Below are positions 1 to 21,353 of a DNA stretch of 21,353 nt, piece after piece. The position numbers and the translations under genes are program-made. Below the pieces are notes generated by a model that did not search any database, was not told where the DNA came from, and worked only from the letters and a program-made list of their open reading frames with translations. This DNA is from Ectocarpus siliculosus (lineage: Eukaryota > Sar > Phaeophyceae > Ectocarpales > Ectocarpaceae): contig FN649751.1 of assembly GCA_000310025.1 (NCBI GenBank), forward strand, positions 3,625,901-3,647,253, written 5' to 3'. Position 1 is the stretch's first letter, and every line of letters begins with the position of its first letter.

Positions 1-326
1 GTTTTTTTTTGGGTGGTTCGCCGCCGACGGCATTTTTTTGGAAAACCTTCCCGCCATTGGGGGGGGGGTGGCCATTGCGGGGGCGGCCGCGGCCCCCTTT
101 ATTGGGGCGTTTCCGGCCCTGGCTTTTTTCCTTGAAAGTTTTTTTTTTTTTTGGGGGGGGGTTTTTTCGGGGTCCTTTTGGGGTTTGGGTTTGGCTTTTT
201 GGGCCTTGGGTTCCCCTGAACGTTGGGATTGGGGGTTTTTTTTTTTTTCCCCTTCGGTTCCCTTGTTTTGGGGGCCTTGTGGCCCCAAAAGAAAGATTTT
301 TTAGGGGGGGGGGGGGGGGGGGGGGG
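1..326. other. Low-quality contig end
   Basis: The first ~300 bases are a smear of expanded homopolymers (T, G and GT runs), ending in a run of 23 G at 304-326. Beyond it the sequence abruptly has normal complexity. This is what collapsed base calling past a G homopolymer looks like. ORFs here encode only Gly/Phe/Pro/Lys runs in every frame. I see no gene here and would mask it. Confidence 0.85.
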
Positions 327-539
327 CGATATCAACTTGGCGTTTGACTAACTTTGTTTCGGTTTGGGGGAGGGGGGGAGGGGGACAGCCAAATACACTT
401 GCTAACTGCTTAGCAGGCACGAAGGCACTACATGCCATCAACAACCCCGTCGATCTACATCCAGCACATTCCCTTTGTAAAAGCCCCACCGGCGGCGCCT
501 AGACACTTCGGGTGAAAGAGAAATAAAATCTAAAGAAGG
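327..539. other. Downstream flank / probable 3' UTR of ASF1
   Basis: This normal-complexity sequence lies between the poly-G run and the ASF1 stop codon. It probably contains the ASF1 3' UTR on the minus strand. I see no coding exon or RNA gene in it. Confidence 0.4.
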
Positions 540-4572: not shown

Positions 4573-7500
4573 ATGTCGGCTCACTACACGGGAGAGATTG
4601 ATCTGCAATTCCTGCGCCACGGGCAAGGACAATACCGATATCCCAACAGCGTTTTTAGGTCTGTGATGAATAACTGGCTTGTTGCCTAAGGTACAAATGA
4701 GTTTGGTTACGTGGCGTGCGTGGTATGTATATGGAATGTGCGCATGAAATGTTCATGTACGCGTATGTGTCGTTGATTCTCTGTCTCACACGTAGTGGCT
4801 ACAATAGTGGCTTCGCGCGCTTTGATGCACTGTGGCAGCAAATTTCTCAATCTGTCAAACTAGGATAACGTGCGACGGTTCTCTTCGAGGACTTTTATTT
4901 GCCCACGTCTTCTTGCTCATGATGTGTCTCTCGCTGCTTGATTTCTTCTCTGGGAGCACACAGATACACGGGGAAATGGAACACAGGGATTAAAAGCGGG
5001 CTAGGCGTGTTCGAGGTCGTGGGGGGGAGCACATACGAGGGTACCTTCGTAGACGGGGAGTTAGAAGGGAAGGGTTCGAAACTATGGGCCGATGGACGAC
5101 GTTACGAGGGGGAGTTTAACAGGGGGGAGTCCAGTGGGGAAGGGCATTTTACCTCTCCTGCTGGCGAATCGTACGTCGGAACGTGGGCCCTCAACAAACG
5201 ACATGGGCGAGGCAAGCTAGTTCTGCCCAACGGCGAAGGAAGCTACGTCGGAGAGTTTCAGAGGCATAGGTAAGGAGCCATTTCACAAGCGGCTGAGGGT
5301 TTCTAGGTGAACGTACACGACCACCTGGCCTCGGGAGGTTCCTGTGTGTCTATATGTAGCGCGCCGCAAGGTTGTCTACGCCATATCGTGATTCTTCGAC
5401 GACTCTTGTACACGCAGACCCTCTCATGGTAAACCTCGTCGTGCCAAAATGATGAGCACACAATCAGTGTAATGAATGCTGCACATGCAACAAGGTGCAC
5501 CTTTCCAGCAGGAGGGAAAGTGGCCCCACCAACTCCGATCCGCACTGATGCCAAAAAGGTTTCACGGGGATGGCCAACTTGTTCTCGCGAACGGCTTTCA
5601 GTTCACGGGAACATTCTCCGGCGGCCTCCCACATGGTACTGGCGCTGCTGTGTACCCTGGCGGAAGCTTGTTCCATGGCCCATTCGACAAAGGCCGAAAC
5701 CACGGACGCGGGGGGACGTACGTGTGCGGTGTCACAGGTATCTACTGGATTGGTGAGTGGGTAGAGGGCAAGGCGAAGGGGTTGCCGTCGAAATGGGAAC
5801 TAGAGCTGGACGGCGACAAGAAAACCTTAGGGGGCGGAGGGGACAGCGTCGGCCAGGCAACGCCGGCGAAGCCTCGAGCGAAGGCAGAAAAGGGTGGTGG
5901 TGGGAAGAAAGGCGCCAAGGGTTCCAAGAAACCTGTTGAGGAGCCTGAGACGGATGCTGCCTACAAACCAGTAATCGCCCACGTTAATGACGACGGGGAC
6001 GTCGCTGCTTTATGGTGTCGCTGTGTGCGGGACGTCCAGGTGTGTTGTTTTCATTTGGCGATGTACATACTTCGTACGTGTTTCTCAACGAGTGCTCGAG
6101 ATGCGTAAGAGCGCAATCTAGCTGATGTTGAAGGTAGTGGGTTTCCGCATTATTCGGAGCCTGTGGCGCCTCGAAGAGTTCATTCGTCACTCCAAACACC
6201 ATCATCACGGTTTAACATCTTATTCTTCGAGGTGATCATCAACTACGGTGTTCGCTCATGTTGTCGTCGCTGGTTTTTGTCACCCACGGAAGGACATGCC
6301 CCAACCACCGCCGATACCTTCAGAGCTCCAAGAAGGTGTTGTTGATGAGTTGACACGACCTGCAAAGGAGCACCCGCGAGAAGTCGTGTCCGACGAGAGC
6401 GGGAGGACACTGACCGTCACCCTGCACGAGGTACGCGCCTGTCCCAAGCTGTTGCTCCGCCCTTATCGATCCCAACGAAAATAAAGTGGTGATCAACGTT
6501 GTACCGACGATGGGGTTGCGGTGCGAATGAACGCGTGTATACACGGGGTTGTGCTTTTCAGCTCCGCGACCCTGTGTTGCTAAGCTTGCCGTAAAGTGAC
6601 CGCTTCTACGTCCCGAAAACCAAGATATCACTCCCGATTTTTGTCCCTACCACTTTTTTATGGGACAAGCAATGCAGGTCACGGAGTCTCCGCAACCGGG
6701 TTCGATCAGTGATCCTGTTCCGTTCTTCGTTCGTAGACCTGACGCCACCGACGTTTCGGAGAGTCTCGGCCGGTTCCCAGTACAAGGGCTGGTAGCCCTG
6801 TTTCAGCGCGACGAGCGGTGCTACCCAAAGGGGACGTCCAGCGATGGCACGGCTCTTCTCATCGTGCCCGGAGAAAAGTCGGCGCCTGACACCCCCGCCG
6901 AAGAAGCTGAGGTTTCGCCACCCGCCAAAGGAAGCAAAGCACCGGCTGCGAAGAGCAAGGGGGGCGTCAAGGGCGAGAGCGAGCAAAAACCTTCCGGGGA
7001 CGATGGCATCGAAGGACTATGGCAAGTGATCAGGAGCGAGGTTCAATCGAACCGCTGTCTCGTGATTAGGGCCGAGGAAAACTTCTCGCTTAGGACCCCA
7101 CCGCTGTTTGACTCGGGGCTCGGCAAAACAAAAGCAGAAGAAGATGGAGAGAGGAAAAATAGTGTTCTAGACTCTGAAGAAAACGCAGGTGTCCTTGAAG
7201 GTGGAGTGCCGCCCGAAGAGGAGAATACGAGGGAAGAGGGTGTGCCAGGAGTCGTCCACGGCAGCTCAAAATCGGTGGAATTATTGCAACAGATCGAACA
7301 CGCTGACGATGCGGGAGAGCAGTGCACGATGATGGTCCAGCAGCACTCCCCATTCGCTGTGTGTCTAGATTTCAGATTAGACTTGATGGAAACCCCAAAA
7401 GGAGAGAGCACGGACGGCGAAGGCGGCCAGGAGAAACCTTTGGAAGAAGAAAAGACAATGAGGATCGTCTTGTGCGGCAATGATGTTGAAGTTTCTGCCG

Positions 7501-9276
7501 TAATGCGCCTCTGGATCCCTCCTGCGGAACCGCCCGTTGGTGCTGCAGATAATGTCGGCATGGAGGCAGACCGCCCGACGGAAATGTCCGGAAGTGGTGC
7601 TTCTGGTGCCCTCGCGAAGGCCGGCGATTCGAGGCTTGGTGCAAAGGGTGGAGCCCTCGAAAACGCGTCTCCGACCACGTTGATCTCCCCTCGTAGCGGT
7701 GGAAATGCCATCGACGACTCTAGCAGCCCTCCCACAACCCCTACTTGGTACCTCCACGCAATATCGATTCGCTGTGGATCTTTCGTTGGGACGGTGCCGT
7801 GTGCGAATCCAGAAGAGATCGCCTTACGACGAAAAGGGTCGACTGCCTCTGCGTCGGAGTCATTGCCTTCGGCAGGAACCGCACCTCATCCGTCAAGAAC
7901 AGGCTTCGACTGCGACTTGGCCGAGTGGCACGCCCTCGCTCTCGTCGCTAGCCCCGAACGGGTGCTCTCGCTGTGCATCGATGGAGAAGAACTCGAATTG
8001 AAACAAGACGCGGGAGGCACTGCTGCTGCAGCCGGCATCGGTTGCGACGAGTCGGAGCTATCGGCGAGCGATGCCGTGGTTTTGGGAGGTGGGGCGGGTG
8101 GGGAGTGGGCGAGTCTCGCTGTCAAGAACCTTGCTGTGTACAACGAATTCCCTGGCATCGACCAGCTCCGGGCGATAACGCAAGTATTCCGGGTGTGGAG
8201 GGAGCGGAAGGAAGCTGCTAGAGTGGCTGATGTGCAGGAAGATGAGCGCTGGGAGGAGGAGACTAGGAGAGCGGAGGAAGAGGAAAGGGAACCCGGTAAG
8301 TGTTGGGCGTGTCACCCACGCAACGAATCAGACGACCTGTAAAAGCAGCGGTGCTTCTCAAGAATGCGCACGACTATCGCAATGGTTGCTTTCACTCTCG
8401 ATTAGCGACCAAAAATTGAACACATCAGATCGCACAGGGCGCTCTTAAAGAGAATAGTTTTTCTAGCGAGTGCAGGGTTGAAGGCGGACGGCCCAACCTT
8501 TGTTTTGCGTACAACGCCACATGTCTGACGAAGTACGGCGAGTCCCCCATCTAATGTTTGCGAAACGTCCTCCCTGTTGTATGCTTCTCATCCTTTGGGT
8601 GTTGCTTTGTACGCTCGTCACGAGGGGCAGGAGAAAGACCGGAGTGGGTTGTGGGGGCTGATCGCCAAACGATCTTGCATAAGAAAACCGTTCGCGGCGA
8701 GGCGAAAATAGACAAGATCGTGTTGCCAAAGGTGAGAGAGGGGACGAGAGGAAGCGTGGGAGGGAATGGTATCGATGTAAGAAAAATTCTACCTGTTTGT
8801 TTGCAGGGACATTCCGTAGGTGAATGGACGTATGTAGTACCGTCCAGAACAATAGAGCACGACGTTCACAACGTGTGCCACTTTCCAACCACGTCGGTGT
8901 CCCTCCGCATAGCTCCTCGAACAGCGAGCCAGCAACAAAGGACGAAGCTACCGCATCCCATTATCTCGCATGCGTTGGATCTCAGCCGTTCTCAAAACGG
9001 ATCTGGAGCACGGCTGTCAACAACGAACCGAACGACCCTCCAACGCCATGTTGCTAGCAGGTGGCACTAGAGGGAGGAGACTGGGTCCTGAGGGTGGAGG
9101 ACGTGTCGCATGGCGAAGGGCCAGACGAATATGGGAGCACCGGCAGGGCAAGATCGGCGGCATCAGCGGAATCGTTCGTGTCGCAAGTCGTGGTGCCCGC
9201 CACGACGGCCACGGACGAAGAGCGCAACACGTTCCCTCCGCTACCCGTGGAGACGGTGAAGCTGGAGCGGGTTTAG
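4573..9276 (+). CDS. MORN-repeat protein with C-terminal LamG-like domain
   Basis: I read seven exons: 4573-4658, 4964-5269, 5559-6039, 6293-6430, 6678-8295, 8631-8731 and 9061-9276. Donors are GT, acceptors AG, and phases match throughout (2,2,0,0,1,0), giving 981 aa. Residues 5-185 carry about eight MORN repeats (YxGxF...GxGxL...G pattern, e.g. YTGKW, YEGTF, YEGEF, YVGTW, YVGEF, FTGTF), plus a degenerate ninth near 193-216. Splicing of exons 2 and 3 restores a perfect repeat across the junction (YVGEFQRHRFHGDG). Residues ~225-260 are a Lys/Gly/Ala low-complexity linker. Residues ~460-840 look like a concanavalin-A/LamG fold, with WHALALV, LSLCIDGEEL and SLAVKNLAVYNE, interrupted by acidic and Ser-rich inserts. 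Residues ~845-877 are a charged, probably helical, segment. MORN repeats in known proteins bind membranes or link to the cytoskeleton; the LamG-like part may bind ligand or protein. The specific role is unknown. No signal peptide or membrane segment is seen. The last exon is the least certain. Confidence 0.85.
4659..9060 (+). other. Introns of the MORN/LamG gene
   Basis: Introns are 4659-4963, 5270-5558, 6040-6292, 6431-6677, 8296-8630 and 8732-9060 (247-335 bp), with coding exons between them. They are shorter and more uniform than the NPL4 introns. Intron 5 has the strong donor GTAAGT. No internal gene is seen in them. Confidence 0.75.
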
Positions 9277-9864: not shown

Positions 9865-12800
9865 TCACTCCAGCACCCACGCACGATACTGTCCCTCTGA
9901 GCCCCAGTAGTTTTCCGGTTGGCAGCGCACCGGCAGCGGTTTCCCGAGCGGGTGGAACTCTAGCGCCACGCTGCGAATTAGGTACCTTTTTTTGGTCCCA
10001 CAAGAGGGAGCGGGGGGGACGAGAGCACGACGGTGCGGAAGGATAAGGGCAAGCACAAGCGGGTCCCTATCCTGACCGAACAGCGGGAAGGAAGGCACCG
10101 GCCGTTCACCGGTATATTTGCGCGGAGGAAGCAACACCAAAGTTCTCACCAGTTGAGCGGGGCAACATGGGGAGGTTGGCTGTCCGTAGTTCGAGCGCCC
10201 AAGGTGACAAGCTTAACCATGACGTTTCCATCGTCCGCGGTACCTTGCAAGCACTGTCCCCACCGCCACCGCGCTACTTTCGCTGACTAGCTTGAGCGGC
10301 GAAACGCTCGTCAAGTCAAAGCTGTCGACCGTAAACTGTAACAAGCGGCAGGGGAGGGAAATCTCGCTCCAAAACGGCCATCCACCACCCTCTCACGCGA
10401 CACTCGTTTTCACGAAGAAAGTACCGTTTCACCGCACGAGCTTAAGAACGGCGCCCCTTTGGTCTGATCGGAAGATTGTGGATCCGGACCGCGGTGCCTG
10501 CCACCCCTGTTGTACATCTCTCGCACCTTTTGCCGGAAGGCGACCCCGCATCGCCCACCACTCTGCCAAGGCGCACCCGCGACCGCGCACACGAGACAGC
10601 AGTCACCCCGTTCTCGGCGTCGTGCTCCTCGACCAAGTGCTCGTCGTCGCAGGGCTCCGCAAAGCTGGAAAACGTGAATAATGGATATGTTATCATGCGT
10701 GTGTGAGTGAAAGTGATCAGAAAAAGGACGTGGCGGCGGCGGGCAGCACGGTAAGGCTTTCGGTCAGGCTAGCGGTCAGAAGTGGCACCGCAGAGCAGAC
10801 GCAGCGCCGCGATGACGAGACAACCCAGAGTGGGGTGGTTGGTAAGATCGAAAATCTTGAGTGGCCTCAGATGGTAACAGTAGTGAGGCCAAAGCCTGTA
10901 GAACGCGCCCCGCGGGGGAGCACAGACAGCAAGAAGTTCTCCATCTCATGAACAGCACGCAACTCTTCCCCACGACTATTAGAGGTTCGTGGGTGACTCG
11001 ATCGACCCGAGGCTGTTGCAGTGCTATGAGACATGACGCCTCCTTTTTCACCTTGGACAGTCGTCCTCTGCTCTTGGCTCCAACTTCCAACCGGAGGTGA
11101 AGAGGGGCAGACCTCCCACGGCGCACGCGTAGAGGCCCTTCTCCCTTGTGTCGAAAACAACCCCCCCGAACAAACCGCCCGTCATCAAAAGGGCCGAACG
11201 AGGAGAGGAGGAAAAAACGGCCGTGAGAGGCAAAAATGTTCTTGACATCACGGCATGAACTATTTCCGAGGGCGTTGTATGCGTCGAGTCCCGTACGATT
11301 TCCCCCATCTTTTATCACCACCATGCCGGCCCGCGGAACGTTCAAGCACAAATACACGCACCGCATTGGCCAGGGCTGTGGGACCCTCCCCTGCCCCCGC
11401 CCCCGCCCCCGAACGAAAAAAGTGTTTGCAGCGGCAATCACTGAAAAAGCAAAAAAAAATCTCGGGAACGGCGATCTTGCTCCGAGTCCCTCACGAGATA
11501 TTGCCTACCACTATATATCTAGCCCAGCAGGCTCCTTCGCCCTGCCGATCTTGCCCGCAACACGCCGCCGAAAGTACTGCTGGGGCAACGTGGGAGCGCG
11601 CCTGCACTAAAATTATTTTTCTCTTTTTTCACCTATGGTCGCGCCAGCCTCGACTTTCATCGTCGTCGTCGTCATCATTGTAGTTGTTGCCGTGATCGTG
11701 CCGAGCTTGAGAGCTTTGTCTGTCGTCTTCCATGGCTCCTCCGAACAGCATCGCCTCTTGCCTGGGCGACAGATGAGAGGCCGCCGCTTTCGTCTTTTCG
11801 GATCAACATGGTGTGAAACGCGACGTACGAGGAAGGGACGGCGCGGACAAACCCAAAAAACAGCGTCGGTGAGGACCCCGGTGTAGAGCATGGCACGCGG
11901 GTTGAAGAGTTAGCTGGTGCTCCAGCTACAAAGGCAAAGATAGGACGTGGAGTAGCTGCTGCTGGGCAAGATACTCGCTGCACGAGTACCTCTGACAAAT
12001 AGTGCGGGAGACGGCGAGGTGCTTTCGTATTTATGCACACAACCCTGCAGCTACTCGTTGGTAGGGTAAGGCCATATGGATTCGATCATTGCTGCGAGTA
12101 AATCGGTCGCCGCTTGGATCTTGTGGTGGCCGGCTGGATTAGCAAAAGAGGTACTGATGTTTGGATGCAAGCACGTATATGTACGTGCATACAATCGAAA
12201 TCTGCCTTCGCGCTTAGCAACTTCGCTGAACTTGAAATAAAAAAAGTGTGAACCATCTCACTTCTGACGGGGTGAAAGGCGTCAGGTCATGCTGGCTTTT
12301 GGACAGCTTCGTGAACCTCGTTGCGAGGTACTCGTCTCGAGTTGTGAGCTCCTGGAAGAGAGCGCATCAATCAACGGCGCGTGCGGCAGTGGTCGGCACG
12401 GGTCAAGGGGGGGCGGTGAGGGGGGCGAGATCAGAGAACAAGGTGGAGTAATTCGTGTGGCCGCTCTGCTCTCAAGGGATGTTTCCACAGCAGTTTCCAC
12501 AAGCGACCCGTGCAACGTTCACCCATCATGTTTTTCTCTTCAGATCTGAGACAGAAGCTCTCGTCGTCCGCGAGTCTACCTGCTGTACTGAAGTACTGCT
12601 TGTAGTGCACGCACCGCCTGCTGTTCGATGCGTGTGTAGGAGTACGCTAAACTCATATTCTCTAGGAAGGATTGACTCTTGGCAAAGAAACGATGCGCGG
12701 AAGCGAAGGGAGACCCCCTCGCAATACCCCCTCGCAACCATGGCATCAAAACTGAACGCACAACATCTGTGCTGCAACCCGAAACATGCGCAGAACGCAG

Positions 12801-13144
12801 GGTTCTGGAAAAGCTTGTGCTGGCTGCAATGAAGTTTGAAAACCTTCATGTACATCAACCGGGGCCCAGAAGGATGAGGAAGCACACGGAAAGTATACAG
12901 GAAGCGAAGGCCAATGCGTAGGGTGCATCGGGAGAACTACCTAATAATGGCGTGGGTGGACTCTGCTTGCCTCTTTGATTCCCTTGCGAGCGATCTCGTC
13001 GTCCATGCGCAGCGGGGAGACGCGCCGCCGCCGAGCGACGTGTTGGTGAGATATTCCTTTCGTGGCAGGAGTAAATGTGTATGCACTCGAGTAGAGAAAG
13101 ACGCCCAACAGAAGAACTACGACGAAGGCCTGTGCACGTGCCAT
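9865..13144 (-). CDS. Plastid-targeted MsrB-fold protein lacking catalytic residues (probable pseudoenzyme)
   Basis: Minus-strand exons are 13144-12971, 12351-12262, 11793-11633, 11144-11052, 10664-10527 and 9985-9865. Phases agree (0,0,2,2,2), giving 258 aa. Residues 1-22 are a hydrophobic signal peptide (VVVLLLGVFLYSSAYTF). A basic segment ending RRRRVSPLRM follows, matching the bipartite plastid presequence of stramenopiles, with Tyr22 where Phe is usual. From ~97 the order follows methionine-R-sulfoxide reductase B: LSPRQEAMLFGG, WRDHREKGLYACAVGG, LPLFTS, CPSFAEPCDDEHLVEEHD, CARSRVRLGRVV, GKRYLIRSVALEF. Active MsrB has RYCxNS; here Leu221 replaces the Cys and Arg223 the Asn. HLGHVF has become RLGRVV. 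The zinc pairs CxxC read C149..G152 and C198..S201. About 25 residues, including six Asp (128-133), are inserted before the first Cys motif, and ~29 residues follow the core. Reductase activity is therefore unlikely; it may be a structural or binding protein. The reading frame is intact, so it is not an obvious pseudogene. Intron 1 appears to use a GC donor. Confidence 0.82.
9986..12970 (-). other. Introns of the MsrB-like gene
   Basis: Introns are 12970-12352, 12261-11794, 11632-11145, 11051-10665 and 10526-9986 (387-619 bp), with coding exons between them. Intron 3 ends with a long pyrimidine tract before ACACAAG. I found no additional exon that keeps the frame, and no other gene. Confidence 0.7.
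12969..12970 (-). other. GC splice donor, intron 1 of the MsrB-like gene
   Basis: Exon 1 ends AAAGAG and is followed by GCAAGC, a good match to the GC-AG donor consensus AG|GCAAGT. Phase 0 joins to exon 2 after CTTCCAG. The only nearby GT alternative is AGA|GTCCAC, also phase 0, which would add Ala-Ser-Arg and matches the donor consensus poorly. Confidence 0.6.
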
Positions 13145-13388
13145 CGCGCACCGCACCACTAGGCGGGAGTGCGCCTGTGTGGGAGAGACACACAGCTGGT
13201 CAGGTTGTATGTAGCAGCCGAGATTTGGAGCAAGGGGGCCGGTGGATAGAACTACAGGCTATGCACCAAGACTGCTATGTGCGGAGCCGCTAGTCAGCCC
13301 CGACGGCGAGCCAGTCCCACCTCAATACACTAGCTAGGTTAGTTAGCATTATCGAGAGATAAAAAGAGTGCAACCTGCTGGACAAACG
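13145..13388. promoter_or_regulatory. Compact divergent promoter region, MsrB-like / NPL4
   Basis: Only 244 bp separate the two start codons, which point in opposite directions, so the core promoters probably overlap or are shared. GATAAAAA at about 13358-13365 is TATA-like but lies within ~30 bases of the NPL4 ATG, too close for an ordinary TATA box with a 5' UTR. The NPL4 ATG has A at -3; the MsrB-like ATG has G at -3 and +4. Confidence 0.55.
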
Positions 13389-14224
13389 ATGATCATCCGA
13401 GTACGGACGCATGCAGGGGTTTGGCGGGTGAACGACGTGGCGCCGGACACGACGATCAAGGAGCTGAGGCAGAGGCTGAGCACGGAGCACAACGCCAACC
13501 TGTCGGACGACACTCGGCAACCCTTGACGCTAAAGCCGAACCCCCGGGGGGACCAGGATACGCTGGCCCTGGAGTCGACGCTGCAGTCGCTGGGACTAGG
13601 GCACGGAGACATGATCCACCTCAACCTCGATGAAAGCATACGGGATATGGCGCACGAGGTAGGGATGCTACGACCTCCTGCTGGTTAGTCCGAGTCTGTT
13701 TTGTGTCAGCTCCCGTGTGTCTCCGCAAGAATGCTGTGTGTACTCGTGGCCGCATTGCTGCTGCTGCTCCCTGGGTGCTCTTTGCTGCGTCGTTGCTTTG
13801 GACCGGGCCCCCTTGATGCACTTACATTGCTTACGAATTGTCGGACGTAGCCAGCACCCGCTGTACCAATGGGAATGCCTTTTGTGTTCCTTCTGTCGAA
13901 GACGATTTTTTGAATTCGCGAAGTTGCAGTTCTGCACAAACAGACCGACACATGTCCGTTTCGACGAAGAGTCGTTTTGTTCTTGTGAGGCCGGTTGCTG
14001 ATTGCTAACCATGCCAGTATTTGCCTGCTGCATGTCCCGTAGTCGTGCATGAGTCCGAATCCTACGTGTTTGTTCGTCTGAAACACAATAGTTGATCCAG
14101 AATAGTCGCAGCAGCCACAAAGCTTTCGCCGGGGATGTGCATAATCAATTGTGGATACTATTTCAGTCCCAGCGCCCACCCCCCGCGTCCCGCGTGTGGT
14201 GTGCGTTATTTCCACAGTTGTTGC

Positions 14225-19895: not shown

Positions 19896-20776
19896 AGAGG
19901 ACACCGCTTTTTTTTTTGTAGACGGTAGCGCTCTCCCCGGGGGTGAGGGAAACCAACGCCTTAGCAACGTGAGAGAGATGTCGAGAGTTTGGGAGGCGGC
20001 TAATTGTGTACTAACCTGATCGGCATCTCGATGGAGAATCTGGTAGTAACTTGGACTTCTGTCGGCCGATGTGGAGCTTCGAGGAGTGGAGGATACGCTA
20101 GCTCTCATGTTGTGCAAGGTGCAGACAGTGGCGCGCTGGTGCTATGTCCTCTTGTTTTGGTGCAGGAGACGTGAGACAGGAGAGAACTGCGGAAGACGAA
20201 TGACAACAACAGCAGTGACAACCCGAACGTTCACGAAGTCCATCGATTGCGTTCTTGATATTGAACCCCTCAATCAGACACACTGCTGTATTTGTCACGC
20301 ACGTTTGGTTTGTGGTCTGTGTGTTTTTGTCATGTAAGAGGTGCTTGTGTCAACACATGTTTTTTCTGTGCTTCCTGGTTTGACATCTCTCTGTGGTCCA
20401 TGTCATTCTGTACCGTGTGTAGTCTGCGGTGTTGTAAGGAGAACAATAGGCGGTGTGTCGAGAGGAGACGAACCTGTTCTATCCAGTTTTCCTTCTACGG
20501 CTGTGTCTCGTGTCTGCTTGAATCGTCTCGCGCTGCTATTGCTGCGCTGCTTCCGCTGTTGTTACCGCCGCCCCTGCCGGGGCGAACACGGTTGTTCGGT
20601 GTTGGTCATCTCCGTCGTCTGTACGGCAGCCGCAAGAGTCACACTCTTGTCGACGAAATTGTCCCCACCCCATCTGCTGTGCGCCTTGCTATTACAGCAG
20701 CACCGATCACTTGTAGAAATCATCGATCGGGGGTCTTTAGTAGGTCATTAGCCCATGTCAGTGGTGGCATCAACTA
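19896..20776. other. Downstream of NPL4, no recognised gene
   Basis: About 880 bp after the NPL4 stop should include its 3' UTR. A T-run (19909-19918) lies just after the stop. Plus-strand ORFs at 20292-20777 and 20341-20751 are Cys/Arg/Ser/Leu-rich, overlap each other, and show no family motif. I cannot support a gene here, though an exon of a neighbour beyond the contig end is possible. Confidence 0.5.
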
Positions 20777-21353
20777 GGGGGGGGGGGGGGGGGGGCCCCT
20801 TTAAACGGGTTCCCCTTTCCCCGGGGCCCCCCCAACCCTTGGGAGGGACCCCGGGAAAAAAATCCTACCAAACCCAACCGGGTTTTTGCTTTTTCCCCGG
20901 AAAAAACCCTTTTTTTAACCCCCCTTACCCTTCCAACCGAAAAAAAAAAAAACCCCCCTCCCTCCCCCAATTGTAAAGCCAAAAAAAAACCCCCCCCCCC
21001 AATTTCCCCTTTTCCTTTTGTTGGCCAGGTTTACCGTTCCCCCCCAAAAAAACAAAAAAAAAGTCCAAGGAAGGGGGATTTAAAAAAGGACCGGTTTTAC
21101 CCTCCCCTCCCCCAAGTCTTACCAAAAAAGGAAAAAACCCCCCCGGACTTTCCCCAAAAACATCTCCCCCGGGAAAGGGTTTGGGGTCCCCCCAACCCCT
21201 GCCCCCCAGCTAAACCCAAAAAAAAGGCCTTTCCCACCCCCCCAAAAACCCTTCCTGGGCCTTAAAACCACGGGCCCGCCTTTTGCCCCCCCCAAAAACC
21301 CCAAAAAAACCCCCCCTGGGGACCGGGGTGTTCCACCCAAAACCAAACATACC
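20777..21353. other. Low-quality contig end
   Basis: Nineteen G (20777-20795) are followed by ~560 bases of expanded C, A and T homopolymers with almost no mixed sequence, the mirror of the left end. The Pro/Lys/Gly ORFs here are artefacts. Mask this region. Confidence 0.87.

Follow-up and report, generated by a model that had tools for sequence, protein, structure and literature searches.

A probable non-catalytic MsrB scaffold, putatively plastid-directed, in the brown alga Ectocarpus siliculosus

Almost all organisms have MsrB, whose fold also occurs in several non-enzymatic binding domains. A gene on the minus strand of E. siliculosus contig FN649751.1, spanning 13144-9865 of the 21,353-nucleotide stretch of DNA analysed here (the window), encodes a SelR/MsrB-derived product in which the hallmarks of catalysis are altered. 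The locus raises the question of whether an enzyme has been kept as a protein without its chemistry, or is a gene on its way to decay. Our analysis points to the former: the gene probably encodes a retained, plastid-directed, non-catalytic MsrB scaffold, that is, a pseudoenzyme.

Gene structure and family membership

The exons were read from the minus strand and number five, where six had initially been proposed; they join in frame and end in a TGA stop. Two models, A and B, were carried through the analysis, giving spliced products of 259 and 234 aa, respectively. The products are identical from TFLPLTAVFSSSPRSALLMTGG on, and neither model contains an internal stop.

Exon 1: 12971..13144, minus strand; ATG, signal peptide and basic transit-like stretch (MARAQ...KGIKE), GC donor
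Exon 2: 12262..12351, minus strand; ELTTRDEYL...SQHDLTPFTPSE; model A ends it at 12262 (donor GTGAGA), model B at 12269 (donor GTCAGA)
Exon 3: 11052..11308, minus strand; MsrB N-terminal half (..LLMTGGLFGGVVFDTREKGLYACAVGGLPLF..DDCP); starts at 11308 in model A or 11240 in model B; donor CCAAG/GTGAAA at 11051
Exon 4: 10527..10664, minus strand; SFAEPCDDEHL...SCARSRVRLGRVVGDAGSPSGKR; R/R/V at the H108/H111/F113 positions
Exon 5: 9865..9985, minus strand; YLIRSVALEF... to TGA; the catalytic Cys position is CTA (9981-9979) and the Asn position CGC (9975-9973)

The junction between exons 2 and 3 is uncertain. The exon 3 acceptor is ambiguous between 11309, which goes with a good GTGAGA donor, and 11241, which goes with a weaker GTCAGA donor, and a run of seven G lies inside exon 3. 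With this acceptor and a non-standard GC donor at exon 1 (GAG/GCAAGC), the description of the splice sites as clean in the initial annotation was too strong. An early model with a direct join TPSE/FDTRE was rejected: there is no AG at that point, and the MsrB N-terminus already aligns with the frame upstream of it.

Profile searches confirmed the assignment to the family. The gene product matched Pfam SelR (PF01641) with E-values of 2.8e-13 (model A) and 2.3e-13 (model B), the scores of 50.3-53.2 bits exceeding the gathering cut-off of 24.9 for both models, and SelR was the only Pfam match at E <0.1. TIGR00357 matched the shortened early model at 3.4e-15 and 56.2 bits, below the equivalog cut-off of 113.05. 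In a PF01641 family search of the alga's own genome, the exons of the window gene were absent at E 0.001 or better.

A search against the PDB, run with model B and the shortened model, returned Xanthomonas MsrB (3hcj) as the best solved relative, with 67.3 bits, an E-value of 1.3e-17 and 40% identity for model B, and 58.9 bits for the shortened model. The match of model B is higher because its N-terminus, SQHDLTP in exon 2, and the spacing from there to the LL-G motif fit the bacterial protein. The likeness to X. campestris MsrB (3hcj, 3hci) comprises 40% identity over the domain, with SQxDLTP at the N-terminus and G-PLP in the C-terminal tail. In a tree that included the window gene, bacterial relatives, paralogues and PDB rows, the gene fell within a 10-row set (96/88) together with the rows L019, L079, L030 and L035, the paralogues C22, C3 and C241, and two PDB rows; it had no closer placement, and its terminal branch was 10 changes per column.

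Loss at the active site and in the scaffold

The residue changes that had been read from the letters alone were all borne out. The RYC motif is RYL, with the Leu codon CTA, and the following Asn is Arg, encoded by CGC; HLGHVF has become RLGRVV (starting at 10573), GTGWPSF reads (AE)DDCPSF, and each zinc CxxC has lost one Cys, the pairs reading CAVG and CARS, so that the Cys that remains is the first of each pair. The catalytic position had been numbered Leu221; it is Leu222 in model A and Leu197 in model B. In addition, the GTE Thr and the substrate Arg (R97 in X. campestris) fall in deletions, the pocket Phe (F113) is Val, and the Cys of PFCG, presumably the resolving Cys of this MsrB subtype, is Gly. 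In X. campestris MsrB the resolving Cys sits downstream of the N-terminal helices, according to the relevant passage of PMC7475093.

The active-site set was taken from the literature, independently of the alignment. It combines the functional set of pneumococcal MsrB listed in a passage of PMC2713860 (Thr-192, His-266, His-269, Asn-286 and Cys-284) with the Xanthomonas substrate pocket given in a passage of PMC4287342 (W73, R97, H111 and F113); one His is common to both, leaving eight positions. The numbering of W73, R97, H111 and F113 was verified on 3hcj. All eight positions are changed or deleted in the window protein, reading gap, Cys, gap, Arg, Arg, Val, Leu and Arg. The activating Thr, His, His and Asn are represented by a gap and three Arg, and the pocket residues W73, R97, H111 and F113 by Cys, a gap, Arg and Val. 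X. campestris MsrB, by contrast, retains W73, R97, H108, H111, F113, C125, N127 and four zinc Cys; all seven of the former residues and two of the zinc Cys are missing from the window protein. Methionine sulfoxide reduction by the known mechanism would thus appear to be ruled out by the sequence.

The zinc tetracysteine is optional in the MsrB family, and loss of the pairs, of which the window protein keeps one Cys each, means little by itself, because one paralogue with an intact catalytic site (C3) also lacks them and a passage of PMC4287342 notes that MsrB homologues occasionally lose the zinc site.

How this loss is distributed was examined against relatives. A contig scan yielded 171 relatives among 224 pattern-matching stretches, of which the best 80 were used; their titles assign 73 of these 80 to Xanthomonadales (Lysobacterales) and the other seven to Myxococcota/Deltaproteobacteria or elsewhere. 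The catalytic Cys is present in all of the best 80 of 171 bacterial relatives (79 by script, and L030 by eye). Viral contigs, searched with the shortened model, contributed four pattern-matching stretches, none encoding a relative. After rows at a string-similarity ratio of at least 0.9 had been dropped, 39 remained, which with five paralogues from the alga gave 44 comparison rows.

Among the columns invariant across these 44 rows, 8 of 14 are changed in the window protein. Fifty-six columns are conserved in at least 90% of the rows, a set that leans on Xanthomonadales; the window protein has lost 27 of them, comprising all eight active-site columns and 19 of the 48 others (hypergeometric P 0.0016). 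The result held at conservation thresholds of 0.95 and 0.8 (P 0.0021 and 0.0027), without the two gap columns (P 0.0069) or without all gap columns (P 0.0059), and against a mixed 12-row reference (P 0.0025).

The same test applied to the paralogues gave active-site losses of 0/8 in C22, 0/8 in C3, 1/8 in C241, 1/8 in C1 and 0/7 in C194, the single losses in C241 and C1 being gaps in incomplete joins of those sequences. Their total losses of conserved columns were 12/62, 20/61, 24/62, 24/65 and 18/47, in the same order. By subtraction, the columns kept outside the active site are 42/54 in C22, 33/53 in C3, 31/54 in C241, 34/57 in C1 and 22/40 in C194, compared with 29/48 in the window protein. 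The scaffold of the window protein is therefore about as conserved as that of four of the five paralogues and below that of C22, and the loss is targeted on the active site.

Neutral simulations run until 27 of the 56 conserved positions were lost gave loss of all eight active-site residues in 0.2-0.4% of runs, no stop in 7-9% (P 0.07-0.09), and both together in 0.1% or less. When neutral change was confined to eight conserved positions, about half of the runs had no stop. An open frame alone is therefore a weak sign of retention, since even the longer neutral runs escape a stop in 7-9% of cases.

Paralogues, coding signal and predicted location

The genome contains at least five other MsrB genes, the best-scored candidates being C22, C3, C241, C1 and C194, and all five have the catalytic Cys. 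C22 shares the GKR/Y intron with the window gene and matches it at 38% over an exon (E 0.17); unlike the window gene, it has an intact TWRHHFCN site. Its identity to Xanthomonas MsrB is 60% and 47% by exon, compared with 39% for the window gene. The better-kept scaffold of C22 and its likeness to Xanthomonas suggest that the scaffold of the window gene may once have been better kept as well. At the C3 locus (L013, G000:C3:569600-574600) the zinc pairs read SAVSG and DRKSG beside the intact catalytic site.

The window gene has the properties of coding sequence. Its codon log-odds against base composition were +14.6 in the true frame (234 codons), the best of the six frames, the next being +4.4, and all 267 windows placed over its introns scored below +14.6. 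This value was reached by 1.9% of 2358 stretches of the window in all frames, among them the coding frames on which the score was trained; the training itself comprised 1066 codons, about half of them from one MORN gene of the window. GC content by codon position was 0.617/0.494/0.698 for the gene and 0.612/0.497/0.676 for the training genes.

Two introns coincide with those of paralogues: the one after the P of the GWP motif (P/SF, phase 2) lies at the same place as in the C3 gene, and the one at GKR/Y (phase 2) at the same place as in the C22 gene. These exact matches indicate that the gene is not a processed copy, and it bears no sign of a processed or decayed pseudogene: introns are present, and the homologous region is unbroken by stops or frameshifts. 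A search of the alga's own genome with the shortened model revealed no near duplicate; beyond the gene's own four exons, the matches had E-values of 0.97, 2.45 and 6.28, that at 2.45 being the last exon of the C3 MsrB.

The N-terminus upstream of the domain has the layout of a bipartite presequence.

Putative bipartite plastid presequence: 13007..13144, minus strand; hydrophobic core, SSA/YTFTP cleavage-type motif, then 25 residues

Residues 1-21 of the product are signal-peptide-like, with hydropathy up to 2.6, and YTFTP follows SSA; the 25 residues after this motif include no acidic and eight basic residues (His included). In the passage of PMC2567999 on HECTAR, the residue that follows cleavage in the ASAFAP motif is described as Phe, with Trp, Tyr or Leu as rare substitutes; a passage of PMC5462543 that also treats the motif makes no mention of MsrB. 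For comparison, antenna-protein genes were located in the genome exon by exon (87 PF00504 matches). The stretches upstream of the domain at 12 antenna loci (10 distinct and closely related), taken exclusive of the signal-peptide exons, carry SAF and, about 16 residues on, AMKMS, at places comparable to those in the window protein. The putative presequence and this comparison are in keeping with an ochrophyte host and a plastid destination for the window protein. The light-harvesting antenna genes are clustered on G000:C92, C232, C488 and C16, several copies having identical scores.

Proposed role, competing readings and known relatives

Expression of the window gene, plastid location of its product, a retained fold and a partner-binding role are what we infer from these features. 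In the proposed scheme, the signal peptide and transit-like stretch would route the MsrB-like protein to the complex plastid. There it would carry out no methionine sulfoxide reduction, since nothing is left of the nucleophile, the activating residues (His, His, Asn and Thr) or the pocket (Trp, Arg, His and Phe), and the zinc tetracysteine is incomplete. Its beta-tent (Mss4-like) body would persist for the contacts that its surface makes, the protein serving as a subunit that is structural or binds a partner; such contact is its likeliest role. Counting against a retained scaffold are the loss of 27 of 56 conserved positions overall, the branch of 10, the TIGR00357 score below its cut-off, the non-standard exon 3 boundary and exon 1 donor, the better-kept scaffold of C22 and the absence of the gene's exons from the PF01641 search of the genome.

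The strongest competitor is a recently inactivated gene, which drifts without function after the loss of catalysis and has so far escaped a stop or frameshift. An unbroken frame would not be surprising on this account, with P 0.07-0.09 if all change were neutral and about 0.5 if the eight positions alone had changed, and the weak exon 3 acceptor and GC donor fit it as well. It sits poorly with the concentration of loss on the active site, with an intact codon signal, with exons that each span the homologous region in a single open frame, and with the 19 further conserved positions that were altered while the frame stayed unbroken. We regard recent inactivation as unlikely, though it must be reckoned with. 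The initial annotation preferred a retained non-catalytic protein to decay, and that preference stands in part: the loss concentrated on the active site, the scaffold comparable to that of four of five paralogues, the open coding-type frame and the shared introns favour it, and recent pseudogenisation tempers it.

Changed chemistry is a much poorer account. Here a new redox or metal site would be formed by the Cys that stands in for the substrate Trp (DDC), or by the two Cys that survive from the zinc pairs; the former lies beside the MsrB ligand cradle described in a passage of PMC4287342, and each of the latter is the first of its pair. Since the activating residues (His, His, Asn and Thr) and the remaining pocket residues are missing too, such a site is improbable. 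Least plausible of all, and largely refuted, is a wrong gene model or sequence error masking an intact MsrB: the ambiguous exon 3 start, the seven-G run, a raised homopolymer fraction at 11001-11500 (0.28) and the poor-looking window edges would allow for it, but the altered residues are substitutions across exons 3, 4 and 5 with no frame shift, no alternative exon in the gene has an intact RYC-N, GWP or HxGHV, and the homopolymer fraction of the whole gene span is an ordinary 0.183.

A possible precedent for the retained, non-catalytic scaffold lies in an organelle ribosome. PDB 6z1p chain BL, which we take to be Tetrahymena mS81, was a weak match to the shortened model (E 0.27); this match was absent with the domain alone or with model B. 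A passage of PMC7326499 describes mS81 as a SelR protein and subunit of the Tetrahymena mitoribosome, and calls it a reductase. As a SelR protein that is part of an organelle ribosome, it provides a precedent for SelR as an assembly subunit; it differs in being mitochondrial. We consider it possible, if doubtful, that a brown-algal (ochrophyte) lineage converted an MsrB into a non-catalytic beta-tent subunit that resides in the plastid. This would be a functional family newly and directly derived from MsrB, comparable to CULT, Yippee and Mss4 in its use of the fold, and perhaps belonging to a plastid assembly as SelR does to the ciliate mitoribosome.

According to a passage of PMC4287342, the beta-tent fold is used without MsrB chemistry in CULT, Yippee, Mis18, the RIG-I regulatory domain and Mss4. 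The passage describes an aromatic cage in CULT, whereas the MsrB-equivalent pocket positions read Cys, gap, Arg and Val in the window protein; the passage also states that the zinc site is essentially always kept in these domains, unlike in the window protein.

Pseudoenzymes are a known kind of protein; in the open-licence papers searched, we found no description of an MsrB pseudoenzyme or of a Cys-less MsrB, and the passages on catalytically inactive Msr in a plastid context concern MsrA splice forms. The initial remark that no algal MsrB pseudoenzyme had been described therefore holds for individual descriptions in this literature, and needs qualifying in view of a survey of 42 algal selenoprotein families. 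In its passages, PMC7539508 tallies as 'Other' those homologues whose Sec position carries neither Sec nor Cys, and places MsrB among the families for which nearly 90% of algal genomes have a Cys or Other homologue, with no Cys/Other split, so that nucleophile-less algal MsrB relatives may already have been counted there. These Other homologues lack the nucleophile, like the window protein; loss of a whole MsrB active site is undescribed in those passages. The authors view the SELENOF Other homologues as preserved and functional.

If the retained-scaffold reading is correct, an MsrB that has lost its chemistry and kept its body, beside five MsrB genes with intact sites, would offer a view of an enzyme taking on a structural or binding role. 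The case also cautions against assuming methionine sulfoxide repair wherever SelR is annotated.

Scanning the window for motifs in all six frames revealed neither GWP[SAG] nor H[LQ]GHV. RYC-N-like matches occurred at 13930 (plus strand), 18187 (minus strand) and 1026 (minus strand) only, all outside the gene, and one CxxC pattern in intron 3, at 10931, is not MsrB-like. The edges of the window (1-500 and 20501-21353) are rich in homopolymers, with fractions in runs of at least three of 0.52, 0.42 and 0.68, compared with 0.08-0.28 elsewhere, and look like poor consensus sequence; sequence resembling these edges adjoins a run of N at another locus (L008). The neighbours of the gene lie on the opposite strand.

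Head-to-head intergenic stretch: 13145..13388, no strand assigned; 244 nt between the start codons of the MsrB-like gene and the NPL4-type gene

The head-to-head neighbour, with its ATG at 13389 (plus strand), has a ubiquitin-like N-terminus and is presumably of NPL4 type. Convergent with the MsrB-like gene are the exons of a repeat protein at 4938-8342 (plus strand), which from its repeats we take to be a MORN-repeat protein.
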